From Bacteroidales bacterium (GTDB taxonomy: Bacteria > Bacteroidota > Bacteroidia > Bacteroidales > F082), in assembly GCA_030683155.1 (NCBI GenBank), contig JAUXMV010000051.1, forward strand, positions 1 through 35,984: a stretch of 35,984 nt of DNA, given 5' to 3'. Of the stretch, positions 2,069 through 19,009 are shown in pieces. The translations under genes and the position numbers were made by a program. Under the pieces are notes generated by a model. That model ran no database searches, had not been told where the DNA came from, and saw only the letters and a program-made list of their open reading frames with translations. Positions within the stretch are counted from its first letter, which is position 1, and every line of letters starts with the position of its first letter.

Positions 2069-3190
2069 ATGAGTAGCCCGGTATTTGACAGAAATCTTCC
2101 TTACAACGATTTACCATTCTTGCCACCTAAGAAGAATATCGAAAACAATCCTGCAATTTTGAAGCGATTGGTAACGGCATCGCGAGCCCTGGCAACTGTA
2201 AACGGCAGTTTAAACCGTCTGCCCAATCCGTTGATGCTAATCAATACTCTGGCCTTACAGGAAGCCAAAGCTTCAACCGAGATCGAGAATATTTTCACAA
2301 CTGAAGATGAATTGTATAAGGCCATCTCGGAATCCTACAAGGATGAAAAAATCGATCCTGCCACCAAAGAAGTAATCAAATATCGCGAGGCGCTTTGGGC
2401 TGGGTATAACGAATTGCAGATCAAACAACAAATTGACGCGCCATTGATTCAGCGCATCTTCAGCAAGATCAAGGAAACATCAGCAGTATACAGGCCGCCC
2501 CAGGCACAGGTTGTGATTAAAAGAGGCGGAAGCGAATTTCGTTCCGGCGAAGTCATCTACACTCCGCCAAGAGCTCCAGGTTTGATCGAAACGCTTATGG
2601 ACAACCTATTTGACTATTTAAATGACGATGAAAAACACCCTGCCGACCCCTTATTGAAAATGTGCGTGGCCCACTATCAGTTTGAAGCCATCCACCCTTT
2701 TCAGGACGGCAATGGAAGATCAGGCAGAATTTTGAATCTGTTGTACCTGTTCAACAAAGGGCTCCTGAACCAGCCAGTTCTCTATATGTCAAAATATATC
2801 ATTCAAAACAAGGAGGATTATTACTTCAGGCTGAGTGCAGTAACCCAACGAAACGCCTGGGAAGCGTGGATCGGTTTTATGCTCGAAGTCACCGAAAAAA
2901 CCGCATGGCATACCCACGCCCGGATCAATGAAATTCTGGCACAAATGGACGCTACACTCGAATATGCCAAAGGCAAAATAAAATGGTACAACAAAGAAGT
3001 GAATGCAGTAATTTTCAGCCAGCCATATATCAAACCTGACCTGATTGGTGAAAGCATTGGAAAAACTTCCAGAACTACCTTGACCAAATACATGAATGAG
3101 CTTGTTGATCAGAAACTGCTCAGACCAAGGAAAGACGGATCGCGCGTTTATTATATCAACGATGAATTAATCCGTATTTTAGAGAGCTGA
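2069..3190 (+). CDS. Fic-family AMP-transferase with C-terminal winged helix (class II)
   Basis: 373 residues, the length and layout of the SoFic/BT_2513 type: an N-terminal helical domain with inhibitory motif (S/T)xxxE(G/N) as S69-TEI-E73-N74, a Fic core with active loop HPFQDGNGRSGR starting at H209, and a C-terminal winged helix around residues 310-370 (IGKTSRTTLTKYMNEL then LLRPRKDGSRVYY). Fic proteins transfer AMP from ATP to hydroxyl side chains; the inhibitory glutamate blocks ATP binding until relieved. All key catalytic residues (H209, D213, N215, R217) are present, so it should be active. The target is unknown. The ATG lies right after a multi-site operator, which suggests autoregulation. 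It is separate from the HEPN/MNT pair upstream. Confidence 0.9.
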   Translation: MSSPVFDRNLPYNDLPFLPPKKNIENNPAILKRLVTASRALATVNGSLNRLPNPLMLINTLALQEAKASTEIENIFTTEDELYKAISESYKDEKIDPATKEVIKYREALWAGYNELQIKQQIDAPLIQRIFSKIKETSAVYRPPQAQVVIKRGGSEFRSGEVIYTPPRAPGLIETLMDNLFDYLNDDEKHPADPLLKMCVAHYQFEAIHPFQDGNGRSGRILNLLYLFNKGLLNQPVLYMSKYIIQNKEDYYFRLSAVTQRNAWEAWIGFMLEVTEKTAWHTHARINEILAQMDATLEYAKGKIKWYNKEVNAVIFSQPYIKPDLIGESIGKTSRTTLTKYMNELVDQKLLRPRKDGSRVYYINDELIRILES

Positions 3191-4753: not shown

Positions 4754-6004
4754 ATGCCACTTACAAAAACAGACATATTGGTATATGCACATTGGGTTGG
4801 TATGAAAGCACCTAAATGGATTGGTGTGTTAGGTGCTCAACAAGCAAAAGGCAAAAAAGCATTTAGTTTTGAATACTCAAATGAATGGCTTCAAACAACG
4901 GAACAAATTTTAATTGACCCGGATATTGGTTGGTATAAAGGACAACAGTTTCCATCCCAAAAAGAAAATTTTGGTGTTTTTTTCGATTCAATGCCCGACA
5001 CCTGGGGAAGAGCCTTAATGAAGCGGCGTTCGGCACTAAAGGCTAAGGAAGACGGCAGACCAGCTCAAAATCTTTACGATATTGATTTTTTGTTCGGAGT
5101 ACATGATGATTGCAGGATGGGAGCTTTAAGATTTAAGCTCGATCCCGACGGACCATTTTTAGACAACAATCAAAATATACCAATTCCGCCATTGAGTAGT
5201 ATCAGAGAATTACAATATGCTGCTCAAATTTTGGAGTCGGATGAAACGATTGAAGATATTAAAAAATGGCTTGAAATTTTGATAGCGCCAGGTTCTTCAT
5301 TAGGAGGAGCAAGGCCAAAGGCTAACCTCATTGACGAGCGAGGCGATTTATGGATAGCAAAGTTCCCATCCAAAGGCGACAGCATTGATAAAGCAGCCTG
5401 GGAATTTTTAGCATATAAATTAGCGATACAAGCCGGGATTGATATGTCAGAATCAAGAATTGAAAAAATTTCAGGTAAGTATCATACCTTCTTCACGAAA
5501 CGATTTGACAGGTTAAAAAAAGAAAGAATTCATTTTGCCAGTGCCATGACAATGACCGGTAACAACGAAGAAACCATAAAAGAAAAACCTGCCAGCTATC
5601 TGGATATTGCTGAATTTATACAATATGCAGGCTTCCAAAATAAAAAAGATTTGCATCAGTTATGGAAACGGATTGTTTTTAATATTGCCATATCCAATAC
5701 GGATGATCATCTCAGAAATCACGGTTTTATTTTGTCAGAAAATGGTTGGATTATTTCTCCTGCGTTTGATATTAACCCCTCAGTTGATAAAAATGGTTTG
5801 GCGCTGAATATTGATACAGAAGATAATTCACTTGATTTTAACCTTGCAAAAAGCGTTGGGGTATATTTTCAATTGACAGAATCAATGATGGAATCAATAA
5901 TTATTGACGTAAAGAATTCTATAAGTAATTGGAAGTTAATAGCGCAGGAAATCGGCATTACAAAATCAGAACAAGAGATAATGTCGTCAGCATTTAGATA
6001 TTAG
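4754..6004 (+). CDS. HipA-family serine/threonine kinase toxin
   Basis: 416 residues, near the usual HipA length. The N-terminal sub-domain has the family motif VFFDSMPDTWGRALM (about residues 75-89). The kinase core shows the Gly-rich loop GSSLGGARPKA (from G180; its serines match the loop that is autophosphorylated in E. coli HipA), an ATP-contacting Lys in LWIAKFPSK, catalytic NTDDHLRNHG (N315-G324; D317 is the likely catalytic Asp) and metal-binding SPAFDINPS (D339). All kinase residues look intact. E. coli HipA phosphorylates glutamyl-tRNA synthetase and triggers dormancy; the target here is unknown. It sits directly after the HTH partner. Confidence 0.88.
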   Translation: MPLTKTDILVYAHWVGMKAPKWIGVLGAQQAKGKKAFSFEYSNEWLQTTEQILIDPDIGWYKGQQFPSQKENFGVFFDSMPDTWGRALMKRRSALKAKEDGRPAQNLYDIDFLFGVHDDCRMGALRFKLDPDGPFLDNNQNIPIPPLSSIRELQYAAQILESDETIEDIKKWLEILIAPGSSLGGARPKANLIDERGDLWIAKFPSKGDSIDKAAWEFLAYKLAIQAGIDMSESRIEKISGKYHTFFTKRFDRLKKERIHFASAMTMTGNNEETIKEKPASYLDIAEFIQYAGFQNKKDLHQLWKRIVFNIAISNTDDHLRNHGFILSENGWIISPAFDINPSVDKNGLALNIDTEDNSLDFNLAKSVGVYFQLTESMMESIIIDVKNSISNWKLIAQEIGITKSEQEIMSSAFRY

Positions 6005-6804: not shown

Positions 6805-7647
6805 CTATTCATTCAGGGAATCGTTTTGCTTTTTTTGTTCCAATTGTTTGGTATTAAAATTTGAGACGACATTTTTACCTGTTTTTTGCTCAATTTCTTT
6901 GCGGGTATTTCCTGCAATTGTGCCGCCTTGTCTGGCAATTTTTCGGTTTTCGGTAAATGTTTTCGGTTTCTTTTCTTTCGATATTTCTGTTGTGGAAGCT
7001 TCTGCCAACATATTAAGTACCAATTCCAAATTGGTCATATTGTCGCGAAGGTTTTCTTTTTTCAGGTCTTTGTGTTTCTTATATTCTTTGGTAGTAAAAC
7101 CACTCCATGCCTGTGTAATATCATTCGTAAGAATAGCAAATTCCTGTCCCTTTTCTACACCGCGCTTTTCCCATTCATCAGTAAGCTCTTTTCGAATTTC
7201 AATGCTTTTTAGTCGTTGGTTTATCCATTCTTTTGAATATCCTTTTCGCAAATATGTTTCCAATAGCCTGTCTATACCAATTTCAGGATCTTCTATTTCA
7301 TCTATTCGCTCGCGGGCAACTTTAGCAATCCACATTTTAAATGGTTCGGCTTTGGGGGATGGAATGGACTGAATTAATCGGAACAGTTGTTCGGTATCAG
7401 CAACATCGGTTTTGTAATTTTTACCATCAGCAGATTGCATTTTCAGTTGTCCGATTTTTTCGGACAACTCACTGCCTTCATTGTTTAATTTTGTTTTTAA
7501 ATCGTTCCAATACTTACGCGGTCGGTCAGTACCTGTGAGCACTTCAATTACATCAATAATTGAAAAATACCATTTTTCTTCATCTTCATTCCATGAAGTA
7601 CGGATTTGTTTTTGCTCAAATATTTTTATGGTTGTTTCTTTTGTCAT
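6805..7647 (-). CDS. BRO-N domain / DinD-like protein
   Basis: 280 residues, close to E. coli DinD (~274). The N-terminal BRO domain covers about residues 8-115, with KWYFSIIDVIEVLTGTD, PRKYWNDLKTKL, DVADTEQLFRLIQSIPS and FKMWIAKVARERIDEI, typical of phage antirepressor-like BRO proteins. The C-terminal part has the DinD-like AFTTKEYK-type region (here SGFTTKEYKKHK) and a basic tail ENRKIARQGGTIAGNTR. DinD is DNA-damage inducible and inhibits RecA filaments; many relatives have unknown roles in mobile or stress loci. It is convergent with the upstream gene and has its own promoter with a ~160-nt leader. Confidence 0.8.
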   Translation of the reverse strand: MTKETTIKIFEQKQIRTSWNEDEEKWYFSIIDVIEVLTGTDRPRKYWNDLKTKLNNEGSELSEKIGQLKMQSADGKNYKTDVADTEQLFRLIQSIPSPKAEPFKMWIAKVARERIDEIEDPEIGIDRLLETYLRKGYSKEWINQRLKSIEIRKELTDEWEKRGVEKGQEFAILTNDITQAWSGFTTKEYKKHKDLKKENLRDNMTNLELVLNMLAEASTTEISKEKKPKTFTENRKIARQGGTIAGNTRKEIEQKTGKNVVSNFNTKQLEQKKQNDSLNE

Positions 7648-7982: not shown

Positions 7983-8603
7983 CTACCTGATCATACTCAA
8001 ACCTTCGAGCGCACTGCTGTCGCCGGGTTTGATCATCAGCGCCTTCTGAAACATTACTTTTGCTTCGCGTAGTTTCCCGGATTTAAGTTGTGACCATGCC
8101 ACCATGATGGCCGTATCATAGTCAAAAGGATAAAGGTTCAGCACCTTGCTGAAATACTTGAGGGCGGTCGGAAAATCTTCGCGTCCGTAGGAAATGAGGC
8201 CCATGCGGTAGTTGGCGGTGGTATTCATAGGATCGATCTTCAAAATGTCCTGGTATTGTTTTTCTACCTGCGCCCAGTTGCCCAAAGCTGCTGCCGGATT
8301 CACATAGCCAAGCCGGGCTTCTATCGACATTGGCATGAGTTCAATGCTTTTCTGATAGTAGGGGAGTGCATCCGAAAACCGGCCTGAAACATAATAAAGC
8401 CAACCAAGGCGGATATTAATTTCGTAGCTGTCGGCTCTGTAAATACCCGAAACGGCCTGAATGGCAATCGCATATTCACCTTTGGCTTCAGCAGCATAGG
8501 ATGTTTCAAAAGCTTTCATTTGTTTTTCAAAATCCTGTGCATTGAGGCTGAAGAAAGCCAGTGAAATAAAAAGCAAAAGACTTGTTTTTTTTAGAATATC
8601 CAT
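7983..8603 (-). CDS. Exported TPR protein, last gene of the PqqD/ATP-grasp operon
   Basis: 206 residues with an N-terminal signal peptide (KKTSLLLFISLAFFSLNAQ type, cleavage probably after NAQ). The remainder is at least four tetratricopeptide repeats, seen as the spaced G/A...Y...A/P pattern (RLGWLYYVSGRFSDALPYY, YRMGLISYGREDFPTALKYF, VAWSQLKSGKLREAKVMF). TPRs are protein-binding scaffolds; with a signal peptide it acts in the periplasm. Its start overlaps the end of the outer-membrane barrel gene by 13 bases, so the two are translated together and the proteins probably interact. No enzymatic domain is visible. Confidence 0.8.
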   Translation of the reverse strand: MDILKKTSLLLFISLAFFSLNAQDFEKQMKAFETSYAAEAKGEYAIAIQAVSGIYRADSYEINIRLGWLYYVSGRFSDALPYYQKSIELMPMSIEARLGYVNPAAALGNWAQVEKQYQDILKIDPMNTTANYRMGLISYGREDFPTALKYFSKVLNLYPFDYDTAIMVAWSQLKSGKLREAKVMFQKALMIKPGDSSALEGLSMIR

Positions 8604-10075
8604 TTTATACCTCCAATTACTGTTTGTGATTGAATTTGATAAGTTTTTGTACTGAAGTTTTGTCCCTCACTGTCGAGAAAATCATATTCGCGTTCTGAAT
8701 CCATAAATCGATAACGGACTTGCAGCAACAAATGTTTTGTCAGGCTTTGACTCAAGGTTGCTTCAAAGCGTAAATTTAATTTTTCAGGACTGTTATAAAC
8801 AATATATCCATATTGATCACTGAGATTGTTTATGTGACCGGCCATTATTTCCGCTTCAAGCCATGTGGTTTTGAAAGGCTTTACACCAAACCGGCTTTTG
8901 ACTATCCATTGGCTTTTGCCTTCGGTATTCACAAGAAAAACCTCCGTTTGGTTGTAGGTATTTATGTTTCCGAAGGGTTGATACAACCATCCGGCATTCA
9001 ATTGAAAAACACTTGAATCGTTGATGCTGCCAATTCCCAGACCTGCCAGAGCAGTGATTTTTCCCAGATGAAGACTGCTGTTCAGTGTGAAGCTGTAATC
9101 GTTGGTCCGCCAGGGGATTGTTACAAATTTCAAACTGTTGACGGAGGTGTTGTATTGTGTCGCCTCACCTGTGATTTTGTTAAAATAGGAGGTGTCCTGA
9201 AGCTTCACTGTGGCACTGTCAGAAACACTAAAATCACGCTCAACGCGCATCAAATGAAGCCCTCCAACAAATTTCAGCTGGGTTGAAGCACCAAAAGAAG
9301 CTTGCAGATATCCCGATCGTTGTGTGAGCTGATGATCGAAGTTTATGGTTTTTGGATTTAGTCCCAACGTATAATAATAAGATTTTCCGAAATCATCTTC
9401 TGCAACCGACTCCAGTGCAAGTTCGGGTTCAAGGTAGGCAAAGCGGTCTGTGGCTGTAATATCTATCCACTGAAATCCTCCATATAAAAGCCACCGGGGA
9501 TTTGCTTTAAAATAAAATCCGGCATCATAAAAGAGATTATCCTGATAAATGCGTTCCTGACCATAGATTCCCTGCGCTCCGGAAAGCTTTTCAAAACTTA
9601 GTCCTTCTGTATTGTTTCTGAAAACATTACCCACATCGGCATGAACAGAAACAGGCACAAAACCTTCTTTCAATCCGGAATTTTCTTTGCTGAGAATATT
9701 CATTTCATGCCAGAGAGAACCTGATTCCACTCCCTTGTTATTTGCCAGCAATGCTTTTTGAAGGTAAAGGATTGCATTTTGGTCGCGCGGACTAAACACC
9801 AATGCTTGTCTGAAATGCTCCTCAGCCTTGCTAAAATTGCAGGTTGACATCGCGGCAATTCCCAGACGCATCCTTAGGTAATAGTAATCCATGCCGTTTT
9901 TTTGCATCAATTTACCTGTTTCCAGCAAAGCCTTCCAGTCTTTTCTCAGATACTGTTCATAGCTCAGGCTGTCGTAGTTCATTTTGGGTGAAACAACCTG
10001 TGCATTTACTTTTCCTGCGAGAAAAAATACCGACAGCAGCAAAAAAACTGAAAATTGTATTTTGATTTTATTCAC
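8591..10075 (-). CDS. TPR plus outer-membrane beta-barrel protein (YaiO-like layout)
   Basis: 494 residues. A signal peptide ends around KVNAQ. About 100 residues follow with TPR character (YLRMRLGIAAMSTCNFSKAEEHFRQAL). From about residue 140 to the end the sequence alternates polar and hydrophobic residues with many aromatics, as in an outer-membrane beta-barrel, and finishes with the aromatic terminus GGIKWIF that BAM recognises. The TPR-then-barrel order resembles YaiO-type proteins, but the family assignment is tentative. The start codon is GTG and overlaps the transporter/peptidase gene by eight bases. In context it is the likely outer-membrane component of the operon. Confidence 0.75.
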   Translation of the reverse strand: MNKIKIQFSVFLLLSVFFLAGKVNAQVVSPKMNYDSLSYEQYLRKDWKALLETGKLMQKNGMDYYYLRMRLGIAAMSTCNFSKAEEHFRQALVFSPRDQNAILYLQKALLANNKGVESGSLWHEMNILSKENSGLKEGFVPVSVHADVGNVFRNNTEGLSFEKLSGAQGIYGQERIYQDNLFYDAGFYFKANPRWLLYGGFQWIDITATDRFAYLEPELALESVAEDDFGKSYYYTLGLNPKTINFDHQLTQRSGYLQASFGASTQLKFVGGLHLMRVERDFSVSDSATVKLQDTSYFNKITGEATQYNTSVNSLKFVTIPWRTNDYSFTLNSSLHLGKITALAGLGIGSINDSSVFQLNAGWLYQPFGNINTYNQTEVFLVNTEGKSQWIVKSRFGVKPFKTTWLEAEIMAGHINNLSDQYGYIVYNSPEKLNLRFEATLSQSLTKHLLLQVRYRFMDSEREYDFLDSEGQNFSTKTYQIQSQTVIGGIKWIF

Positions 10076-12263
10076 GGCTGAGTTTAATTTTTTTATTGCT
10101 TTTGTTCACAGTATAGGACATGAGTTGATTTTCGCTGAAGGACATCTCATAGCTACGTTCTTCAATTTTCCTGCCAAAAATACAAAACCGGATTCGTGAC
10201 TGCATTGCGATGCGCGGAGAACTTAAATCATTCACTAAACGTTTCTGTTCCAGCGTATAAGTAGCGCTGAGGAAACGATAAAAAGGCGCGATGAAATCCT
10301 GCAAAGCCAGAACAAATCTGTTTGGATACAGACTTAGCGTCAGTTGTTCTTTTATTTGTAAACCAGGTACAAAACCTGTTATCAGCTGATAGGTGCCCAA
10401 AAAGAAGTCGAAAAGCAGACTGTTCTTATCACCTTCGTAATGCGTGAAAAAGAAAATATCTGGTTGGCGGACGAACCATGCTTTAGCGCCTGTTTGCTCA
10501 CAGCGGATGAAAGTATTGTTGTAAATATCGGTTTCAATCTTCCAGGAAATATCTCTGATTTTTTCACCGTCGTCTGCTTTAAAAAAGAGGATCTGTCCGG
10601 GAATAAAATGAAGCGCATTGTCAAGAAGTTCCAGGATCTGATTGTTCGAAACAGTCTCAGCTTTCACAGGCTGTGAAGATGATCTGAAGGCAGTTTCTTT
10701 GCCATGATGCAGATAGGCGGCAAAGGGATAATTCAATGTTGCGGCGCCAACTTCGCCTGCCGCCTGAAACTGAAAATGCAGGTGAGGATAGGGCGAGCGC
10801 CCGGAGTTGCCACAGCTTGCAAGCTGTTCGCCTTTGCGCACATATTGACCTGCTTTTACGATGATGCTGTTTTTTCTCAGATGACTCAGCTGCGAAAAGA
10901 GTCCGGTGGCATGACTAACAACGATGCTGTTTCCCCAATTGTCTTTCAGGTTAAAATCGCCAATAAGATTGTCGTCCACACCATCAACAATGGCAGTGAT
11001 ATATCCGTCGGCGGGCGCAACAACAGGTTTGTTGTAACAATAGTAGTCTGTAAGCTGGTGTCCGTTTCCTGAATAGGTTTTTCCCTCTTCATCGGCCATT
11101 TCAAAATCCCAGGCATATTTCCAGACGTCTTTATGGGTGTGCTCTCCTTCGATGCCCTGAGTGACAATCCATTTTCCCCAGAAGGGCAGTTTCATTGGAA
11201 TCTTTCCGAGATGCGAAAGTCTGTTTTTATTGACCAGATAACTGTAAAGGTTTTTCTCGGGACTGTACTGCTGGATATAAACCAATGTGGGCTTCTCATG
11301 AAAGCGTTCCCGGAGGTAGAAAAGGTAAACGAGCAGGATTACAACGATATTGAAGGGCAATGAAAATATTCCAAGCTGATAGTTTCCTAAAACGACATTT
11401 CCGGAAACAATAAGAAAGGCTATCAAAGGTACCGAAAGCAGTACATATAAAAACGAACTGGCCGAAGGAATTACAAAAAACCCTCCGATAGCAATGGCAG
11501 TCAGAATGTAGTTGAAACCAATATAGGTGTAGCTGAGTTCACTGATGCTGGCTCCGATAAAATCATAAAACAACCATGCTGCTGCAAAACCAATGACAGA
11601 AAACAAAAATGCAAGTCTTGACCAGTAAACCAATCCGGCGGCGATTACCAATCCGGCAAAAAGATGGTACTGAAAAAATATCGCACCAAGCGACCTGAAG
11701 TAAACTTTGATCATCTCCGGCCAGCCCAGCGTATTGAACCAGTCATAAACCTTTACGAGCGAAAGACCTCCAAGCAGATACATTTCGTTCAGCGTATAAA
11801 TGCCTCTTTGGCTGATTTCAAGATGGCTGAACTGCCGTGTGCTCAGCATGGCTATCCAGGTGGCAAACAAAAATGGCAGACTCAGAAAAGGTAGTCCGTA
11901 TTTTGTAAGGATTCCTTCCAGCATTCCTGTAATGAGCAACGAAAGCAGCGAAATAAATATTAATACGACAACAAAAACCATATTGAACTGAAAATGTATT
12001 CCCAAACCAAGTCCGGCCAGCAAAGCGTTGAAGCCATAAAGGCCGTCAACAACTTTATTGCGGTTTAATCCACTCAGGTAGGCGGCCATATTGGCTGTGA
12101 GTACAGCCAAAAGACCGGCGAAACCTGCATTCAGATCAAACATTGAAACCAATATTAAAAGCAAGCCCAACACCTTGTTTTTCGAAAAGAAAATCTGGGT
12201 ATAACTATTGCTCAGGCTTTGCCAGAAATAGGGGAAAATATATTTCAGCTTTTCTGCTATCAT
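10068..12263 (-). CDS. Urea-transporter-like membrane domain fused to an M23 peptidase
   Basis: 731 residues. Residues ~25-318 are about ten membrane segments with both urea-transporter signatures: VVDGLYGFNALLAGLGLG (72-89) and the second-repeat form YIGFNYILTAIAIGG (247-261). After a linker comes an M23/LytM metallopeptidase domain (~360-520): HTHKDVWKYAWDF (H377, D386 as candidate zinc ligands), HATGLFSQLSHL (H461) and PHLHFQF (H494, H496), so it looks catalytically complete. About 200 C-terminal residues are unassigned. UT proteins are channels for urea and small amides; M23 enzymes cut peptidoglycan cross-bridges. It overlaps the decarboxylase gene by four bases (ATGA). Since UT channels normally have both ends in the cytoplasm, how the peptidase reaches the wall is unclear. 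Confidence 0.85.
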   Translation of the reverse strand: MIAEKLKYIFPYFWQSLSNSYTQIFFSKNKVLGLLLILVSMFDLNAGFAGLLAVLTANMAAYLSGLNRNKVVDGLYGFNALLAGLGLGIHFQFNMVFVVVLIFISLLSLLITGMLEGILTKYGLPFLSLPFLFATWIAMLSTRQFSHLEISQRGIYTLNEMYLLGGLSLVKVYDWFNTLGWPEMIKVYFRSLGAIFFQYHLFAGLVIAAGLVYWSRLAFLFSVIGFAAAWLFYDFIGASISELSYTYIGFNYILTAIAIGGFFVIPSASSFLYVLLSVPLIAFLIVSGNVVLGNYQLGIFSLPFNIVVILLVYLFYLRERFHEKPTLVYIQQYSPEKNLYSYLVNKNRLSHLGKIPMKLPFWGKWIVTQGIEGEHTHKDVWKYAWDFEMADEEGKTYSGNGHQLTDYYCYNKPVVAPADGYITAIVDGVDDNLIGDFNLKDNWGNSIVVSHATGLFSQLSHLRKNSIIVKAGQYVRKGEQLASCGNSGRSPYPHLHFQFQAAGEVGAATLNYPFAAYLHHGKETAFRSSSQPVKAETVSNNQILELLDNALHFIPGQILFFKADDGEKIRDISWKIETDIYNNTFIRCEQTGAKAWFVRQPDIFFFTHYEGDKNSLLFDFFLGTYQLITGFVPGLQIKEQLTLSLYPNRFVLALQDFIAPFYRFLSATYTLEQKRLVNDLSSPRIAMQSRIRFCIFGRKIEERSYEMSFSENQLMSYTVNKSNKKIKLSRE

Positions 12264-13621
12264 AGTTCGAAGTGCACCAGATGCGGAGGTACAGCCTCCA
12301 GATCGGTTAGTGTGCTCAGGGTTTCATTGTTGCGAATAACATGTAGTTTGCCATACTCATCAATAAGCAGAACTTTTGGCCGCAGGGTAATAAACTGCAT
12401 CCATTGGGTCATATTATAAGCGCCAACATGATGCACCACCACCTGATCTCCTTTGTTGAGCAAAGGCATATTGATGCTTTCGCGCACAACATCGATGTTC
12501 ATGCATAAAGGACCATAAAGCGCTGTATCTTCGGTATAAGAAGTAAATGCCTGAGCCGGTGTAATCTTGTGGTCGTACCAGAAAGCGGTGAAAAGGATAT
12601 TTACGCCAATGTCAAGTATTGTCGAACGGCGTCCGTCGGAAAGCCGTTTGTTGGCCAGCACACTTCCCAGAAGCCATGCAGCATCATCAATCAAAGCGCG
12701 CCCTGATTCGATGATGAGCAATGGGGGCGTCTTGGGTCTGTAGTCGCTGTTCATCAATGCAGAAGTAATGGCTTCGGCAAAATCATCGATGGAAGGACTT
12801 ATGTCGCTACCCGGTAAAAATGAACCTTTGAGCGTGTTTTTTGATGCAAAACCACCACCCATATCGATGTATTTGATTTCATGGTTGTATTTTGCAAGCA
12901 CACTTTGCGCAAGATGAGCCAGTTTTGAGGCTGCCACAGCGTATGCACCTGCCGAAAGCATAAATGTTCCGATATGTGTGTGCAATCCTACAAGATCCAT
13001 CTGACCCGAAAACATGATTTTATTCAATGCATCCCATGCCTGGCCGTTTTCGTAGTTGAAACCAAAGCGATCCCACATCGGAAATATACCTGTGTCCAGA
13101 TTAACCCGGATGGCTACTTTAGGCCGCTGTTTGGAGTTCTTTGCTATATCCTGCAACAAATACAATTCATCAAGGTGATCGATATGGATCAGCGAATTAT
13201 TTGTAACAGCTTTGCGCAGATCAGCTTCACTTTTGTCGGGACCGTTGAAAATTATTTTACTACCTTCAACGCCATTCCGGATGGCTTTATCATACTCAAA
13301 ACCTGAAACCACTTCGGCCCAGGAGCCTTCCTGATGATAAATTTTGCAGACAGCATCGAGATAATTGGTTTTATAACTCCATGCAAACTGAACCTTGGGG
13401 TAGCGTGTTTCGAAGGCTTGTTTGGCTGCACGGTAATTTTTTCTGATTTTCTTTTCGGAAATCACAAAAACCGGAGAACCGTGATCGCGGATGAGGTCTT
13501 TCACAGCGTGGCCTTCAACATGTGTAACAGGCTCATAAATAGTACGCATTCCGAATTTGTTGGGCATATTGCTTTCCAACTTTTTTATTATCGGCCGTTC
13601 GTAGGTTTTTTTTGGTGACAT
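12260..13621 (-). CDS. Fold-III PLP-dependent amino-acid decarboxylase with leader-like N-terminal tail
   Basis: 453 residues. It is of the alanine-racemase-fold family that includes diaminopimelate, ornithine and arginine decarboxylases. Motifs in order: PLP lysine K84 in AWSYKTN, HTHIGT (H214/H216), phosphate-binding GGGFAS (255-260), ESGR (305-308), catalytic Cys in GPLCMNID (C373, D377) and GAYN (400-403). It should decarboxylate a basic or meso amino acid to an amine; the substrate cannot be read from sequence. The first ~25 residues precede the fold and contain TYERPIIKKLESNMP, a YxxP..KL pattern like leader peptides bound by PqqD-type domains. It follows the ATP-grasp gene after 93 bp and overlaps the next gene by four bases. 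Confidence 0.85.
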   Translation of the reverse strand: MSPKKTYERPIIKKLESNMPNKFGMRTIYEPVTHVEGHAVKDLIRDHGSPVFVISEKKIRKNYRAAKQAFETRYPKVQFAWSYKTNYLDAVCKIYHQEGSWAEVVSGFEYDKAIRNGVEGSKIIFNGPDKSEADLRKAVTNNSLIHIDHLDELYLLQDIAKNSKQRPKVAIRVNLDTGIFPMWDRFGFNYENGQAWDALNKIMFSGQMDLVGLHTHIGTFMLSAGAYAVAASKLAHLAQSVLAKYNHEIKYIDMGGGFASKNTLKGSFLPGSDISPSIDDFAEAITSALMNSDYRPKTPPLLIIESGRALIDDAAWLLGSVLANKRLSDGRRSTILDIGVNILFTAFWYDHKITPAQAFTSYTEDTALYGPLCMNIDVVRESINMPLLNKGDQVVVHHVGAYNMTQWMQFITLRPKVLLIDEYGKLHVIRNNETLSTLTDLEAVPPHLVHFEL

Positions 13622-13685
13622 CTTTTCAAGTATTTATTTTTTCGTTTTTTTATTTTTCTGATGCTTCATTTCAAAGGAGCTTCTG

Positions 13686-13703
13686 TTTTAGAACCGTCTA
13701 AAA
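13686..13703. other. Hairpin between the ATP-grasp and decarboxylase genes
   Basis: TTTTAGA, loop ACCG, TCTAAAA, extended outward by AGCTT/AAGCT with an internal bulge. On the transcribed (minus) strand no U-run follows, so it is more likely an RNA-stability or processing element than a terminator. It lies in the only sizeable gap inside the operon. Confidence 0.4.
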
Positions 13704-13714
13704 AAGCTGTTGTT

Positions 13715-14761
13715 TTACAACTCTCCATTGGTTGATATTTGTTCGAATTCGTGCAAGTCAACGATCATGTCCCATGCATAACGGATAAACATTTTTCCAA
13801 CTTCATAAGTGGTAAAGGCATCGGTGGGCCAGCCCATAGCAAGGCGTGTGAGTGCTTCAGGGATATTTTGACCGACGCCAACAGCGAGGTAAATCCATGC
13901 AGGCATGCGGGGATTGATTTCCAGAAGATGATATTTTCCTTCTTTGTCTTTCATGAGTTCAAGCTCAAAACCTCCCCGCCATTTGGTTTCCGAAAGAAAA
14001 CGCTTTGTAAGCGCAAGCGCCTCTTTGTCTGAAATAGAAATACCCCCCCAGGCTTTTCCTTTGTCGGTAATGTACTGTTTGCGCATAGGCACAGCTGCAA
14101 CGGTATTACCTTCGCCGTCGCCGAGTCCTGTCACGTTGTATTCAGTACCATGCACAAATTTCTGAATAATGATCGGCAATCCCCATTTGGCGGAAATCTT
14201 GTTGAATGCCGACTTCACCTGATCGAAGTTATAAGCAAGCGTGGCATCATAATATTTTCCTTTGACAACAAGCGGCCAGTCGTAATCTTTTTCTAGCTGC
14301 TGCACTTCGTTTACGCTATATACCGACTTGCTTTCCGGAACAAGGATGTTGTATTTATTGCCGAATTTGTTAAGGTTCACTTTATGCCGTTCTTCAAATT
14401 GTTCCATTGTTGGCAAAAAAGTATGGATTCCTTTTTTCTTGAGTGTATCGGAAAGCTTGATAAAGGAATACAGCTCAGCATCGAAATTTGGAATGATGAC
14501 ATCCAGTTTTTCCTGCTCATGGATATATTCCAGGCGTGTCATCAGCACTTCCATTCCAGCCGATGGATAAGGAATCTGATAGGTTTTATCGACGATATCA
14601 TGCATATAGATTCCGGGTTCGAGCGATTCATAGGAAAGCCCGATGATGCGAACGTCGAAGGAGGCCGCTTCGCGCAAACCTCTTATAACGGCCACACCCG
14701 GACCGGGACTGTCGATAGCGTTCAGTCCGGTAACACCGATGGTTAGTCTGGGTTTACTCAT
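13715..14761 (-). CDS. ATP-grasp ligase
   Basis: 348 residues with the three-part ATP-grasp layout: N-terminal Rossmann-like part with TGLNAIDSPGPGVAVIRGL (11-29), ATP-binding Lys in PLVVKGKYYDA (K167), hinge QKFVHGTEYNV (200-210) and the metal-binding end LLEINPRMPAW (E281, N283). The layout resembles carbamoyl-phosphate-synthase-like ATP-grasp enzymes. Such enzymes activate a carboxylate as acyl-phosphate and join it to an amine or thiol. With a PqqD-like protein and an amino-acid decarboxylase beside it, it may make an amide bond on a peptide or amino-acid substrate; that is inference. The ATG lies inside the end of the PqqD-like gene (eight-base overlap). Confidence 0.85.
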   Translation of the reverse strand: MSKPRLTIGVTGLNAIDSPGPGVAVIRGLREAASFDVRIIGLSYESLEPGIYMHDIVDKTYQIPYPSAGMEVLMTRLEYIHEQEKLDVIIPNFDAELYSFIKLSDTLKKKGIHTFLPTMEQFEERHKVNLNKFGNKYNILVPESKSVYSVNEVQQLEKDYDWPLVVKGKYYDATLAYNFDQVKSAFNKISAKWGLPIIIQKFVHGTEYNVTGLGDGEGNTVAAVPMRKQYITDKGKAWGGISISDKEALALTKRFLSETKWRGGFELELMKDKEGKYHLLEINPRMPAWIYLAVGVGQNIPEALTRLAMGWPTDAFTTYEVGKMFIRYAWDMIVDLHEFEQISTNGEL

Positions 14762-15005
14762 CGTCGTGCTGCATAAGGCGGTATTGCCGCATCATTTCGA
14801 TGAAATCGAGCAGGTCGCGTTCTGCGTTGTCTGCTTCTACATTATAACTGGCCTGCATGGCAGCAATGATTTCGCTGTGGGACAAGCCTTTTCTGAGATG
14901 GTTGAGCATTTCAAGGCCAACAGGATTTACTGTAAAAGATTCGCCTGATCCGGGGTTGAAAATGAAGCCATTCTCACTTACAGCGATGTTATTTTTTACT
15001 TTCAT
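14754..15005 (-). CDS. PqqD-like small protein (RiPP-recognition-element type)
   Basis: 83 residues. It shows the PqqD pattern: an N-terminal beta-hairpin with FIFNPGSGESFTVNPVGLEML (about 14-34, the conserved N-x-x-G-x-x-x-L stretch) followed by two or three helices (HSEIIAAMQASYNV, AERDLLDFIEMMRQY). PqqD and related domains bind leader peptides and present them to modifying enzymes, but PqqD-like proteins also occur in pathways where no precursor peptide is known. No separate precursor gene is obvious nearby. As the first gene of an overlapping operon, it probably serves the ATP-grasp enzyme. A TAATCTTG sequence at 15035-15028 (minus) is a poor -7 match. Confidence 0.8.
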   Translation of the reverse strand: MKVKNNIAVSENGFIFNPGSGESFTVNPVGLEMLNHLRKGLSHSEIIAAMQASYNVEADNAERDLLDFIEMMRQYRLMQHDDE

Positions 15006-15097: not shown

Positions 15098-15691
15098 TTA
15101 TGAAGGAGTTTGATTGCCTAATCGTATTCCATGACGTTCTTTTTCAGGGAGCGCCTTGTAATCTGTTACTGAATAACCCGTTATCTGTTTAAACTGTGTC
15201 GAAAGGTATTGCACGCTGCTATACCCCATCATATAGGCAATTTCGCTCAGACTGAGTTCATCAGACTGAAGCAACTCCTTCACTTTTTCGATGCGCTGAA
15301 GAATGATATATTTTTCGAGTGTAATGTTTTCGTGCCTCGAAAATAAGGTGGAAAGATGCTGGTAGCTTTTATCAAAACGACTAACGATGAAATCGGAATT
15401 GCGAACCATTGCATTAAAGGTTGTATGATGCACAAGCTCGATCACCACCCTTTTTATTTCTTCGATCAGCACACTTTCTTTGTCATTTAATATGCCAAAA
15501 CCAAGGGATTTAAACAACGTTTCGATTTGTTCCCGGCTAACCAATTCAGGATTCCAGGCTATGGAGATGTCGCCGAGTTTTGATTTCCGCACCTCAACAC
15601 CCAGGTGGTCAAGTTCGATATGCAATAGCTTCAGGCAGCAATCGCTCAGCATATTGCTCAATAAGTATCGATGTTGAATTCTCTCAGACAT
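15098..15691 (-). CDS. AraC-family regulator with a degenerate HMA-like N-terminal domain
   Basis: 197 residues. The C-terminal ~80 residues form an AraC double helix-turn-helix (ITLEKYIILQRIEKVKELL, LSLSEIAYMMGYSS, YLSTQFKQITGYS). The N-terminal ~75 residues read like a heavy-metal-associated fold (LDHLGVEVRKSKLGDISI, EQIETLFKSLGFGILND), as in many small Bacteroidetes AraC proteins, but the metal motif CxxC is reduced to adjacent C18-C19. It lies 92 bp upstream of the PqqD-like gene on the same strand and has its own promoter. It may control that operon, or a metal response elsewhere. Confidence 0.8.
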   Translation of the reverse strand: MSERIQHRYLLSNMLSDCCLKLLHIELDHLGVEVRKSKLGDISIAWNPELVSREQIETLFKSLGFGILNDKESVLIEEIKRVVIELVHHTTFNAMVRNSDFIVSRFDKSYQHLSTLFSRHENITLEKYIILQRIEKVKELLQSDELSLSEIAYMMGYSSVQYLSTQFKQITGYSVTDYKALPEKERHGIRLGNQTPS

Positions 15692-15920: not shown

Positions 15921-16221
15921 AGGGCTTGCTGAAAAACTCAGAATGTTGATATTTCGGTGCGCTGCACCTCTCGTTTCAATTCTATTTGTTTTTCCTACAA
16001 AGATTATCGCCACTCTGTGGCTCAATTTCAGACCTTAAGACCTTCAGACTTTCAGACCTTCAGTAGAATTTTGTTCGGTGGTGTGTTTAAAGGTGCAGCG
16101 CACCGAAATATCTGATGCAAGGTTTTTGAACCAATATCTCCCAAATACGTTCACAAGAAATAAGATGCTATTGGATTAACTTTCAATATTTCAATAGTTT
16201 AGGACTTTTTCAGCAAGCCCT
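15921..16221. repeat. MITE-like element with nested inverted repeats
   Basis: About 300 bp with terminal inverted repeats AGGGCTTGCTGAAAAA (15921-15936) and its exact complement at 16206-16221. Inside lies a second perfect 22-bp inverted pair, beginning GATATTTCGGTGCGCTGC near 15949 and ending at about 16112. The centre has purine/pyrimidine-biased repeats (ACCTTCAGACTTTCAG). No transposase frame is present. The right end overlaps the last bases of fabH. No clear target duplication is visible. The remaining ~180 bp of the gap (15741-15920) holds only a dubious 27-codon frame. Confidence 0.7.
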
Positions 16222-17218
16222 ACTTAGGGTCGTAAGCCCATTTCAGGTAAATGGAACCCCAGGTGAAGCCACCGCCAAAAGCAGCTAGAATAATATTGTC
16301 GCCTTTGTGCAACTTATTTTCCCATTCCCACAAACACAATGGAATAGTGCCGTTTGTGGTATTTCCATAGCGTTCTATGTTGACCATCACCTGTTCTTTA
16401 TTGATGCCCATACGTTTTGCTGTGGCTTCAATAATGCGCATATTGGCCTGATGTGGAACAAGCCATGCAATTTCCTCAGGTTTGAGGTTGTTTTTATTGA
16501 CGATGGCTGCTGCAGCATCTGCCATATTGGTTACGGCAAATTTGAAAACGGCCTGTCCTTCCTGATAAACAAAATGTTCGCGTGCATCGATAGTAGCTAT
16601 GGTAGGCGGTTTTGCCGAGCCACCGGCTTTCATATGCAGATGGGTCATTCCGGCGCCATCGGTCTGCATGAGCGAATCCATGATACCAAATTCTTCGGTG
16701 GTTGGCTCGAGCAGCAAAGCACCTCCGCCATCACCAAAAATGACGCATGTGGCACGATCTGTATAATCAACAATTGAAGACATTTTATCGGCTCCGACGA
16801 CAATAATTTTTTTGTGGCTTCCGCTTTCGATAAATTTTGAGGCGGTCACAAGGGCATAAAGGAGTCCTGAACAAGCTGCATTCAGGTCAAAACTGAAGGC
16901 GTTTTTAATGCCGCAATTATGACTGATGATATTTGCTGTGGCAGGGAAAAGCATGTCAGGCGTCACTGTGGCACAGATCAGCATATCCACCTCTTCAGGT
17001 TTTGTGCCTGTTTTTTCCAGCAAGCCTTTCACAGCTTCTGTGCCGATAACAGAAGTGCCTTTGCCTTCTCCTTTTAGTATGTGGCGTTCTTTGATGCCGG
17101 TTCGGGTCATGATCCACTCGTTGGTGGTATCAACCATTTTTTCAAGTTCGGCATTTGTAAGCAAATCCGCCGGCACCCATCCCTGAATCCCGGTAATTGC
17201 AGCTTTTAATGTCTTCAT
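16220..17218 (-). CDS. fabH: 3-oxoacyl-ACP synthase III
   Basis: 332 residues, normal FabH length, covering the complete fold. The catalytic triad is visible: Cys116 in NAACSGLL, His256 in PHQANMRI, Asn286 in [10 protein letters not shown]. The Gly-rich C-terminal motif [15 protein letters not shown] is intact. It condenses acetyl- (or branched acyl-) CoA with malonyl-ACP to start fatty acid synthesis in the cytoplasm. It follows plsX after 31 bp at the end of the yceD-rpmF-plsX-fabH operon, a widespread arrangement. Its TAG stop lies at the edge of a MITE-like element; the protein itself is not truncated. Confidence 0.97.
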
Positions 17219-17249
17219 GCTTTAATAGAATTTGCCCCAATGGCTTTAA

Positions 17250-18200
17250 TTAAATTGCAATGTCTTTTATTGCAACGTTGATTTTTTCACTTAATGAAGA
17301 GGATACTATGTCGCGTGAAAGGAGCATCATGTTTTTTATAGCCAAAGGACTACTGATACCATGGCCGATAACAACAGGCTGATTTATGCCTATGATCGCA
17401 CTTCCGCCATATATTTCATAATTGAACCTACTGAAATAATCATCCAGTAAACCGCGTTTTTCCATAATGCGATACATGGCTTGAATTTGTTTGATGACAA
17501 TATTGCCCGTGAAGCCATCGCATACAACCACATCAGTTTTGTCGCTGAAAAGGTCGCGGCCTTCAACATTTCCAACAAAATTAAAAGTGCTGGTATCTTT
17601 CATCAACTGAAAGGCTGACTGGACCAGTAGATTTCCTTTTTTCTCTTCTTCACCGATATTTAAAAGACCCACTTTAGGTTTTTCAATACCTAAAATATTT
17701 TGTGCATACAATGATCCTAAAAAGCCATATTGATAAAGCACATCATGCTTGGCATCCGGATTGGTTCCTACATCTAAGATGATATTGCTTCCGCCACTGA
17801 GTTTTGGAATCATTACAATACTAGCAGGTCTGATAACGCCAGGTATAGTATTTACAATATGTACCGCCCCTACCATCATGGCACCACTGTTGCCAGCGCT
17901 TGAAAAAGCATCTATTTTCCCAGATTTTAGCCACTCGAACCCTTTAACGATCGTGGACTCAGGCTTTGATTGAAAAGCCTTTATGGGCTTGTCTGACATG
18001 GTGATTGTGTCAGGTGCATGAACTATTTCAACCCTTCCGGAATTCAAAACCGCACTATCAAGATAGTTGCGTATAATTTCTTCATCACCAAATAACACAA
18101 CACGCTCACCCCTGGTGAGTTCAGGGATAAGGAGCAACAAGCCATCGAGTGTTGCCTTTGGGGCAAAGTCACCTCCGGAAACATCCAGGCCTAAACGCAT
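17250..18200 (-). CDS. plsX: Phosphate acyltransferase PlsX
   Basis: 316 residues, full family length. It starts with the PlsX signature GLDVSGGDFAPKATLDG (family norm D-x-x-GGD-x-aP), then FSSAGNSGAMM, ILDVGTNPDAKH, NIGEEEKKGN and VVCDGFTGNIVIK, all characteristic. It converts acyl-ACP to acyl-phosphate for phosphatidic acid synthesis at the membrane surface. It lies between rpmF and fabH, in the usual order and strand. Confidence 0.97.
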   Translation of the reverse strand: MRLGLDVSGGDFAPKATLDGLLLLIPELTRGERVVLFGDEEIIRNYLDSAVLNSGRVEIVHAPDTITMSDKPIKAFQSKPESTIVKGFEWLKSGKIDAFSSAGNSGAMMVGAVHIVNTIPGVIRPASIVMIPKLSGGSNIILDVGTNPDAKHDVLYQYGFLGSLYAQNILGIEKPKVGLLNIGEEEKKGNLLVQSAFQLMKDTSTFNFVGNVEGRDLFSDKTDVVVCDGFTGNIVIKQIQAMYRIMEKRGLLDDYFSRFNYEIYGGSAIIGINQPVVIGHGISSPLAIKNMMLLSRDIVSSSLSEKINVAIKDIAI

Positions 18201-18244
18201 TTCTGATGATTTAGGTCAACCTGAATTATCTGACAAGTCATTTG

Positions 18245-18430
18245 TTATGCTTTGGCTTCCATCACAAGTTTTCCCTTGTAATAGAGGTCTCCATCAACAT
18301 AATAAGCTCTGTGATATACATGAATAGTTCCGGTGACCGGACATTTGGCTAGCTGAGGCATCACTGCTTTGTCGTGTGTTCTTCTTTTATCTCTTCTTGT
18401 CGTTGAGATTTTTCGTTTAGGATGTGCCAT
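18245..18430 (-). CDS. rpmF: Ribosomal protein bL32
   Basis: 61 residues, starting [20 protein letters not shown], the invariant bL32 N-terminus, then [24 protein letters not shown]. Only one cysteine is present, so a complete four-Cys zinc ribbon is absent and this is a zinc-independent form. It belongs to the large ribosomal subunit. It lies between yceD and plsX, as in many bacteria. Confidence 0.97.
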
Positions 18431-18467
18431 TTCTTGTGATATTATTAGTTATCAAAAAATATATTGA

Positions 18468-18983
18468 TTATGATTTCAAATTCTTCAAAGCTTCCCAGCG
18501 CGGGTCGTTTTGTTCTTCAACGCGCAACTGTTCAAGGCGCTTAATAACTTCCGGGTTGCAACCGCTGTTTCCAGCATCATCTTCAGGATGAACCTTTCTG
18601 ATAGGCAGGAGCAGCACCATATACTCATAAATAAGCTGGCTTACGTCGAATTCATGCAAGTCGGCAGGGATGATAATTATTTCATCCGACTCCTCTTCGT
18701 AATGATCACCATATTTCAAAATGAGCGTTTGCATTCCCTCAATTTCCTGACGGTATTCATCTGCACATCGATCACATGGTACTTCGAGCCAACCATGAAA
18801 ATCGAAATGCATCTCGATCATATTCTCCCTTTTGTCGAACATCAGATCAACATGCACCGCTGCATCTATGATTTCAGATTCGTCAAACATATCTAGGAAT
18901 TGACGTCCTAATTCAAAGGTATAGTGCTTGTTACCAACAGCAAGGCCGGCAATGGGTAAAATAAATTCGCGATGATATTTCAC
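18468..18983 (-). CDS. yceD: YceD/DUF177 family protein
   Basis: 171 residues from the GTG I prefer. The domain is recognised by LEVPCDRCADEY (Cys pair CDRC), the strand-rich middle, DVSQLIYEYMVLLLPIRKVHPED and the C-terminal NDPRWEALKNLK. YceD is linked to 23S rRNA accumulation and is almost always next to rpmF, as here. A longer frame opens at TTG 18998, but that start would leave only ~6 nt after the predicted transcription start. The GTG gives MKYHREFILPIAGL, which fits the usual family N-terminus and a ~20-nt leader. Confidence 0.88.
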   Translation of the reverse strand: MKYHREFILPIAGLAVGNKHYTFELGRQFLDMFDESEIIDAAVHVDLMFDKRENMIEMHFDFHGWLEVPCDRCADEYRQEIEGMQTLILKYGDHYEEESDEIIIIPADLHEFDVSQLIYEYMVLLLPIRKVHPEDDAGNSGCNPEVIKRLEQLRVEEQNDPRWEALKNLKS

Positions 18984-19009
18984 TTCGTTTATCGTCAAAA
19001 ATCGGGCGG

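Follow-up and report, generated by a model that had tools for sequence, protein, structure and literature searches.

A leader-like tail on a decarboxylase as the putative docking partner of a PqqD-type recognition protein in a conserved six-gene unit of Bacteroidota

RiPP recognition element (RRE) domains serve as beacons for gene clusters that make ribosomally synthesized and post-translationally modified peptides (RiPPs), and an operon that encodes a PqqD-like RRE raises the question of what this protein reads. We address this question for contig JAUXMV010000051.1 of the Bacteroidales assembly GCA_030683155.1 (GTDB lineage Bacteroidales; F082). The window, meaning the whole stretch of 35,984 nucleotides analyzed, contains six minus-strand open reading frames (ORFs) at 7983-15005, which overlap by 8, 4, 8 and 13 bases and leave a single gap of 93 bases (Table 1). 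They encode a PqqD-like protein, an ATP-grasp ligase, a pyridoxal phosphate (PLP)-dependent decarboxylase, a urea-transporter-type channel fused to an M23 peptidase (UT-M23), a probable outer-membrane barrel protein and a tetratricopeptide repeat (TPR) protein. An earlier note on this DNA had proposed that the operon is undescribed, makes an amine- or peptide-derived compound, and links it to transport or wall remodelling. A new feature described here is that the decarboxylase opens with a conserved, predicted-disordered tail that resembles an RRE-binding leader. Sequence and covariation together make it very likely that PqqD docks on this tail in its RRE groove. Our wider reading, to which we give somewhat better than an even chance, is that the six genes form one pathway unit in which PqqD serves an enzyme rather than a peptide precursor, and that a small amide or amine metabolite is made and released.

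The closest solved relatives of the window PqqD family are found among leader-binding proteins. The nearest is the lasso RRE TbiB1 (5V1U/5V1V, E 3.8e-11), and further matches are TfuB1 (6JX3, E 3.5e-7) and PbaB1 (9X90, E 9.6e-4); 8CWY and 8CWS, near 1e-3 in the same search of solved sequences, were taken for chance. Both NCBIfam models for lasso PqqD chaperones remained below their cut-offs (NF033530, 35.0 against 70 bits; NF033536, 26.8 against 80 bits). The text available from PMC13381572 gives [Y/W]xxPx[L/V/I/F/A] as the motif found in the leaders of lasso and LPP precursors, and that from PMC12710340 likewise gives a YxxP leader motif. In LppB, the leader Tyr is hydrogen-bonded by D70, the leader Pro is sandwiched by V35 and F74, and the kink is fixed by N33; the counterparts in the Trp-reading PbaB1 are Q79, F83 and G42, and a G42N/Q79D change raised binding of a Tyr leader (PMC13381572, same portion). 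An ungapped alignment to 9X90 places PbaB1 G42, Q79 and F83 at residues 27, 64 and 68 of the window protein. As aligned, its Asn27, Asp64 and Phe68 form the Tyr-reading residue set. Among the 150 distinct PqqD-decarboxylase pairs described below, Asn27 is present in all and Phe68 in 146, and residue 54 (PbaB1 Y69, LppB Y60) is Tyr or Phe in all.

The motif that such a groove would read is found at the start of the neighboring decarboxylase. About 30 residues precede the decarboxylase fold (7KH2, an N-citrylornithine decarboxylase, aligns from query residue 30, and the first LysA from residue 34), and this tail has the consensus [YF]ERPxIxK...NKFG, which matches the YxxP motif read by lasso-type PqqD/RRE proteins. 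Across 73 aligned homologues, E8, P10, K22 and G24 do not vary, 68 homologues each have R9 and I12, and residue 7 is Tyr in 66 and Phe in 7. K22 is also found in 149/149 pairs that matched the tail regular expression, always nine residues past position 12; the expression admitted K or R at position 22, and the single row that failed it, locus L126, also has K. The divergent locus L193, with YTKP and NKFA, indicates that E8 and G24 are not absolute. In an AlphaFold2 model built on the 73-row alignment, the mean predicted local distance difference test (pLDDT) score is 88.3 and the scores for residues 1-4 and 6-26 are below 50. This combination of conservation and predicted disorder is what would be expected of a docking segment. 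The LysA-type paralogue in the source genome lacks the tail motif.

Tail and PqqD vary together at the place of the published Tyr-Asp contact. We scanned 181 loci, 174 of them with the ligase; nine gave no tail and three no PqqD, most of these being short loci, and removal of identical pairs reduced the resulting 162 PqqD-decarboxylase pairs to 150. Residue 64 of PqqD is Asp in 115 of the 117 pairs with a Tyr tail (including L126, which the motif expression missed and which was counted by eye as Tyr/Asp) and Asn in the other two. The remaining 33 pairs all have Phe tails, and here residue 64 is Tyr in 30 and Ser, His or Phe in one each, never Asp or Asn. Agreement between Tyr or Phe at tail residue 7 and Asp/Asn or another residue at PqqD 64 is 150/150 (Fisher's p 6e-34, on rows related by descent). 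Four further divergent loci judged by eye (L191-L194) all combine a Tyr tail with Asp; in L192, some 1.9 kb separate the ligase from the PqqD match, which is weak. When all 34,852 decarboxylase × PqqD column pairs were ranked, the pair 7-64 came first both by mutual information (MI) over joint entropy and by MI with average product correction (APC). Its MI/joint entropy value was 0.68, compared to 0.37 for the runner-up (effective number of sequences 115). The pair of decarboxylase residue 16 and PqqD residue 22, eighth by APC-corrected MI, is near the register expected from LppA/LppB beta-pairing in the part of PMC13381572 available. Tail columns 5-24 occur in 5 of the top 10 pairs, where 0.45 would be expected (p 3.6e-5, with pairs treated as independent though they are not).

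Several features of these data weigh against taking the correlation as a contact. The top pairs also join PqqD 64 to columns 385, 269, 352 and 362 in the body of the decarboxylase, and residual phylogenetic signal is therefore present. On the ligase tree, each trait changes three times by parsimony, two of these on supported branches, and the independent-pairs agreement is 2/2 on supported branches (3 on all), a number with which a sign test cannot reach 0.05. With so few switches, and with the Phe tails confined to one 37-tip clade, the correlation could reflect shared ancestry alone; the tail would then be structural, for example part of a dimer interface, and PqqD would serve only the ATP-grasp enzyme. 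Within that same clade, however, the four Tyr tips have D, N, N and D, and none of the 33 Phe tips has either residue. Also against shared ancestry, the pair 7-64 outranks every other column pair and coincides with the published contact, and the tail has low confidence in the monomer model. The rough chance of three changes falling on those branches is about 1.6e-7 (6 × 0.00165 × 0.00262 × 0.00615), an estimate from branch lengths that uses one placement of the changes and ignores rate variation. We give the explanation by ancestry the least credence of those considered here and regard it as very improbable.

Docking of PqqD on the decarboxylase is in keeping with a search for other clients. 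The six frames of 103 pooled loci, described below, were scanned with the tail motif and the matches mapped to ORFs. A loose tail expression gave 98 matches in 97 of these loci, compared to 5 in reversed sequence, and the match lies inside the decarboxylase ORF in 96 of the 97 loci that have such an ORF. The two other matches are the tail of L092, in frame just before a broken decarboxylase, and an unrelated 51-codon ORF in L037. Sixteen looser YE[RK]P matches form no gene family, and several are antisense to the ligase gene. A precursor peptide nearby was rejected as a candidate, as the 103 loci contain no second recurrent motif-bearing ORF. Because the motif recurs only in the decarboxylase, and because the only PF05402 match in the source genome (98.6% complete) is the window PqqD, we read the decarboxylase as the client of PqqD. 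Both the PqqD family and the YxxP motif are characteristic of RiPP systems, and an ordinary RiPP-type pathway could have its precursor encoded elsewhere, with the tail as an incidental copy of a leader used for scaffolding or regulation. A shorter pattern, however, found only one further match in the source genome against 7 in a reversed-pattern control, and the Pfam and NCBIfam matches of the six genes include no lasso cyclase, leader peptidase or other RiPP-class enzyme. A graspetide cluster finds no support either, as the ligase here is PRK12767/CPS-like rather than a graspetide-type maturase, and no precursor was found in the 103 loci. A precursor encoded elsewhere, which might have a different motif, is in our view quite improbable.

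The proposed partners are inherited together. A UT-M23 protein search of 41 genomes, the source genome and 40 relatives, gave long matches in 23, and 23 loci were taken from the 22 other genomes. The six genes are ordered on one strand in 16 of these loci and interrupted by contig ends in 6; in L029, the PqqD, ligase and decarboxylase genes are oriented opposite to UT-M23. We also queried the GTDB species collection with the ATP-grasp alignment and so added the best 80 of at least 529 relatives; of these 80, 76 are Bacteroidota by name, 2 Chlorobiota and 2 'uncultured bacterium'. The ligase is present in 100 of the 103 pooled loci (94 distinct), and 55 loci have sufficient flank. The complete set, in order and on one strand, is found in 52 of these 55; L106 and L108 have no TPR gene at the customary position, and L084 has only PqqD and the decarboxylase next to the ligase. 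PqqD adjoins the ligase in 93/93 loci with enough upstream DNA. The neighborhood is conserved, and the gene arrangement is therefore not a product of chance. Of 395 evenly sampled Bacteroidota genomes, 34 have a strong ligase match (a partial, weak match in G409 has E 1.9e-32), and the same 34 genomes contain UT-M23 and a decarboxylase that aligns from profile position 1-3, tail included. An additional decarboxylase homologue in G311 aligns only from position 34 (E 1.3e-49). The unit is patchy yet inherited as a block. Ten distant flanked loci (L191, L193-L201) all have matches to PqqD, ligase, decarboxylase and UT-M23.

Some loci depart from the standard layout. The gap between decarboxylase and UT-M23 exceeds 400 bases in 16/103 loci, but an extra core gene there was rejected, as the inserts tested with Pfam differ: L019 and L064 have IF-2B-type genes, and L028, L054, L070 and L072 have others. 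The IF-2B-family genes, both in Bacteroidales loci, are at L019:7189-8037 and L064:12490-13458, and the L072 insert consists of a sensor kinase and an aminotransferase. Reading frames appear broken in the UT-M23 gene of L195 (8923-11198, genome G045) and in the decarboxylase gene of L092 (2479-3861).

These results bear out part of the earlier note. Its description of six overlapping minus-strand genes with one gap agrees with the coordinates and family matches, and its expectation of a conserved neighborhood, in which PqqD, an ATP-grasp ligase and a decarboxylase are joined with membrane parts in one unit, survived the comparison of loci. ATP-grasp amidoligase neighborhoods, possibly with a ligase, a decarboxylase and a peptidase together, were reportedly predicted by Iyer et al. 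in 2009; they are not known to include a relation between a tail and an RRE. The proposal that the system is undescribed agrees with the literature searched for the gene set and its parts, in which no account of the set was found and which excludes most subscription journals; the portions available of PMC10352776, PMC7470986 and PMC8939145 do not mention it.

The relatives of the two enzymes suggest what chemistry the unit might perform. The best solved match of the decarboxylase is 7KH2, both by sequence (E 5.4e-76) and by fold, its best profile is FigC/FslC (NF041039, 234.6 bits, under the curated cut-off of 500), and BtrK is present in both the sequence and the fold match lists. K84 (the PLP lysine), C373 (the catalytic cysteine), M374 and D377 are each found in 73/73 homologues, and alignments place Cys-Met in the decarboxylase and 7KH2 where LysA (1TWI) has Cys-Glu. 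According to the available part of PMC7857480, FigC, SbnH, AcsE, MccE and BtrK fall in one clade with diaminopimelate and D-ornithine decarboxylases. The substrates of these five enzymes are conjugated amino acids, that of BtrK being carrier-bound BtrI-S-glutamate. The nearest solved sequence to the window ligase is a carbamoyl phosphate synthetase (CPS), and CPS and BtrJ-like ligases are grouped in one clade in the text available from PMC4431377. From kinship with FigC and BtrK on one side and a CPS/BtrJ-like ligase on the other, we infer that an amide is formed first and that a conjugated amino acid, which may be tethered, is then decarboxylated. That the order is amide formation and then alpha-decarboxylation, by a subfamily acting on side-chain-conjugated amino acids, we judge to have about an even chance of being correct. 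The ligase homologues, at least 169 proteins, also have a conserved C-terminal GE[L/I/F/V/M], which was matched 159 times and in 145 of these cases coincides with the end of the protein; such conservation suggests that the C-terminus may have a further docking or catalytic role.

FigC/FslC being both the best profile and the best solved match, a citrate-type siderophore or polyamine route was also considered, in which a FigC-like decarboxylase would act on N-acylated ornithine and PqqD would be only a stabilizer. The profile score is far under the FslC cut-off, however, the ligase is an ATP-grasp enzyme, and neither an NIS synthetase nor a siderophore receptor family is among the matches of the six genes. 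We consider this route improbable.

The model of the UT-M23 protein (mean pLDDT 89.9) matches urea transporters (3K3G; dvUT fold, TMt 0.83) and LytM domains. The PF03253 score is well above the cut-off of 25 bits and the equivalog cut-off of TIGR03441 is not reached (116.5/274.6 bits), so that urea is not implied as the permeant. One dvUT Glu, which we take to have a role in the pore, aligns with Ala194, a position that is Ala in 51/54 homologues; on this ground too, urea need not be the permeant. H377, D386, H461, H494 and H496 of the M23 domain are each present in 54/54 homologues, and we presume from the M23 motif that they provide the zinc site (H..D and HxH) and the catalytic His. With loops allotted to two sides from the model helices, mean Lys/Arg counts over the 54 homologues are 1.11, 1.72, 1.06, 1.02, 0.59 and 3.54 on the side of the N-terminus and the pre-M23 segment, and 0, 0.07, 0.15, 0, 0.02 and 0 on the opposite side. 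No segment after the UT part is hydrophobic enough to span the membrane (best 19-residue mean 1.24, alignment mean 0.79, compared to values up to 2.87 in the UT part), and the termini of UT-A are intracellular in the portion of PMC12649947 available. Given this positive-inside pattern, the lack of a later transmembrane segment and the UT-A termini, the M23 domain should therefore face the cytosol, a topology that we consider probable. A disulfide in the M23 domain was tried as a sign of a periplasmic location and gave no support, because three conserved Cys are lost independently; residues 409/484 are C/C in 37, C/V in 6, A/C in 6, C/S in 2, and C/T, G/C and S/C in one each of the 54 homologues, and are never jointly lost. 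The two UT-M23 frames of L195 were likewise rejected as evidence on topology: the second has no Met among its initial 120 residues, a T run closes the first, and the split is probably a frame error.

Taken together, the proposed pathway would run as follows. The RRE groove of PqqD would bind the disordered YERPxI tail of the decarboxylase in the way that leaders are bound by lasso-peptide RREs, and docking would put the tail, including its NKFG block, within reach of the ATP-grasp ligase. This enzyme would form an amide on an amino acid, whose alpha-carboxyl the decarboxylase would then strip. The M23 domain would process the product at the cytosolic face of the inner membrane, and the product would pass the fused urea-transporter-like channel and exit via the barrel and TPR proteins; we hold this transport route as tentative, slightly short of an even chance. 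With respect to the earlier note, the decarboxylase relatives are compatible with an amine- or amide-derived product, and a peptide presented by PqqD does not fit the lack of a recurrent second motif ORF in the 103 loci, the evident partner being the decarboxylase tail. Wall remodelling is not supported, given the prediction that the M23 domain faces the cytosol. The label of an outer-membrane barrel with TPRs derives from sequence features: the protein has a TPR match toward its N-terminus that is below cut-off, its N-terminus is hydrophobic and its C-terminus carries GGIKWIF, but it has no barrel family match in Pfam or NCBIfam.

Parts of this pathway meet with difficulties. M23 domains normally act outside the cytosol, and the loop at 141-160, allotted to the periplasm, has 1.7 Lys/Arg with 2.5 Asp/Glu. 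In the ten distant loci, the TPR gene was detected in 8/10 and a separate barrel ORF in 5/10; these genes may have been lost, relocated or become too diverged for the profiles, and the export route is perhaps not general. Finally, Lys22 and NKFG are outside the RRE motif, and docking alone leaves both unexplained.

The last point would be accommodated if the tail were itself the substrate, with YERPxI as leader and NKFG as core, a self-carrier that needs neither a carrier protein nor a precursor peptide. PqqD would present the tail, the ligase would acylate Lys22 via the side-chain carboxyl of an amino acid, the tethered amino acid would be decarboxylated in cis or across the dimer, and M23 would free the product into the channel. 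The invariance and fixed spacing of K22 in a tail predicted to be disordered fit this scheme, as do the use of carrier-bound or conjugated amino acids by the decarboxylase relatives (BtrK on BtrI-S-glutamate), the CPS-like character of a ligase whose clade includes BtrJ-like enzymes, the intact motif residues of ligase, decarboxylase and M23, and the lack of an acyl carrier protein domain among the Pfam matches of the six genes. An invariant Lys could equally be a second docking contact, however, and Gly24 of the presumed core is Ala in L193. We consider a self-carrier unlikely, while giving it more weight than the other alternatives above.

The surroundings of the operon are mixed. The AraC-type gene, a possible regulator, sits 92 bases upstream, and a homologue is found upstream on the same strand in 31/88 loci. 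Its N-terminal domain carries NM-x-[CS]-x-CC, the first Cys being Ser in the window and its near relatives (L009-L031 homologues compared), a motif that we take to be reminiscent of metal-binding HMA domains. Farther upstream, at 16220-18998, is an ordinary fatty-acid cluster composed of FabH, PlsX-type (FA_synthesis) and YceD genes; FabH adjoins the operon in 4 of the 23 fetched relatives (L010, L011, L012 and L031). Directly downstream is a BRO-N protein gene (6805-7647) with 98.6% identity in one close relative, L030, and the plus strand beyond contains two toxin-antitoxin-like genes, one with a Fic domain (2069-3190) and one of the HipA_C type (4754-6004).

Table 1. Features of the six-gene unit and its possible regulator, with positions in the window
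Feature	Position	Strand	Basis or remark
PqqD-like discrete RRE, 83 aa	14754..15005	-	PF05402 49.3 bits vs cut-off 23.4
PqqD codon N27	14925..14927	-	place of PbaB1 G42 / LppB N33, kink at leader Pro
PqqD codon D64	14814..14816	-	place of PbaB1 Q79 / LppB D70, hydrogen bond to leader Tyr
PqqD codon F68	14802..14804	-	place of PbaB1 F83 / LppB F74, packing on leader Pro
ATP-grasp ligase, CPS/PRK12767-like, motif E281-x-N283-P-R285 intact	13715..14761	-	PF15632 39.9 bits vs cut-off 29.1; invariant columns
PLP-dependent alanine-racemase-fold decarboxylase, FigC/FslC-like, 453 aa	12260..13621	-	PF02784 + PF00278 (Orn/DAP/Arg decarboxylase)
Decarboxylase N-terminal tail, residues 1-26	13544..13621	-	conserved, predicted disordered
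YERPII, residues 7-12, putative leader-like RRE-binding motif	13586..13603	-	motif match [Y/W]xxPx[L/V/I/F/A]
NKFG, residues 21-24, second conserved block; K22 candidate acceptor	13550..13561	-	K22 conservation
UT-M23: urea-transporter-type channel + M23 metallopeptidase + C-terminal beta domain	10068..12263	-	PF03253 188.3 bits, PF01551 56.3 bits
UT channel domain, residues 17-314	11322..12215	-	PF03253; dvUT fold
M23 domain, about residues 365-530, predicted cytosolic	10674..11171	-	PF01551; model; loop charges
Probably exported TPR + probable outer-membrane barrel	8591..10075	-	weak TPR; GG[IL]xW-type C-terminal ends in homologues
Probably exported TPR protein	7983..8603	-	TPR matches; homologues
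AraC-type regulator, possible operon regulator	15098..15691	-	PF12833

If our reading is correct, an RRE with an enzyme tail as its client is present across a phylum, and leader recognition doubles as a general means of docking. Such a role could account for some of the RREs that genome mining has turned up in non-RiPP contexts. It would likewise be unusual for a urea-transporter-type channel to be fused to an M23 domain that lies in the cytosol. The tail and PqqD are a concrete and readily testable protein-peptide pair that offers a way into an obscure Bacteroidota pathway.

Comparison with known systems places the unit between several of them. With the lasso and LPP RREs (TbiB1, TfuB1/FusB1, PbaB1 and LppB) it shares the PqqD family and the contact places N27, D64 and F68, and with the YxxP leaders of those RREs the decarboxylase tail shares an aromatic-xxP-x-Ile motif of equal spacing. 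In contrast to those systems, the motif here is at the N-terminus of a 453-aa decarboxylase instead of on a precursor peptide, and the window unit has no cyclase, no leader peptidase of those families and no precursor. The decarboxylase has the fold, PLP lysine and Cys-Met active-site loop of FigC/FslC (7KH2), whereas the 7KH2 alignment begins after the window tail and the partner ligase is an ATP-grasp enzyme, not an NIS synthetase. The dvUT channel (3K3F/3K3G) and the LytM/M23 peptidases have the channel fold and the metal-site residues, respectively, in common with the UT-M23 protein, which differs from them in fusing both and in the predicted cytosolic location of its M23 domain. For the butirosin system BtrJ-BtrK-BtrI, we assume the part of BtrJ in the likeness. 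Both that system and the window unit combine a CPS/BtrJ-clade ATP-grasp ligase with a BtrK-clade decarboxylase (for BtrK and BtrI, the available part of PMC7857480), but the window unit has no acyl carrier protein and has instead an RRE with a decarboxylase tail, a membrane channel-peptidase and barrel genes.

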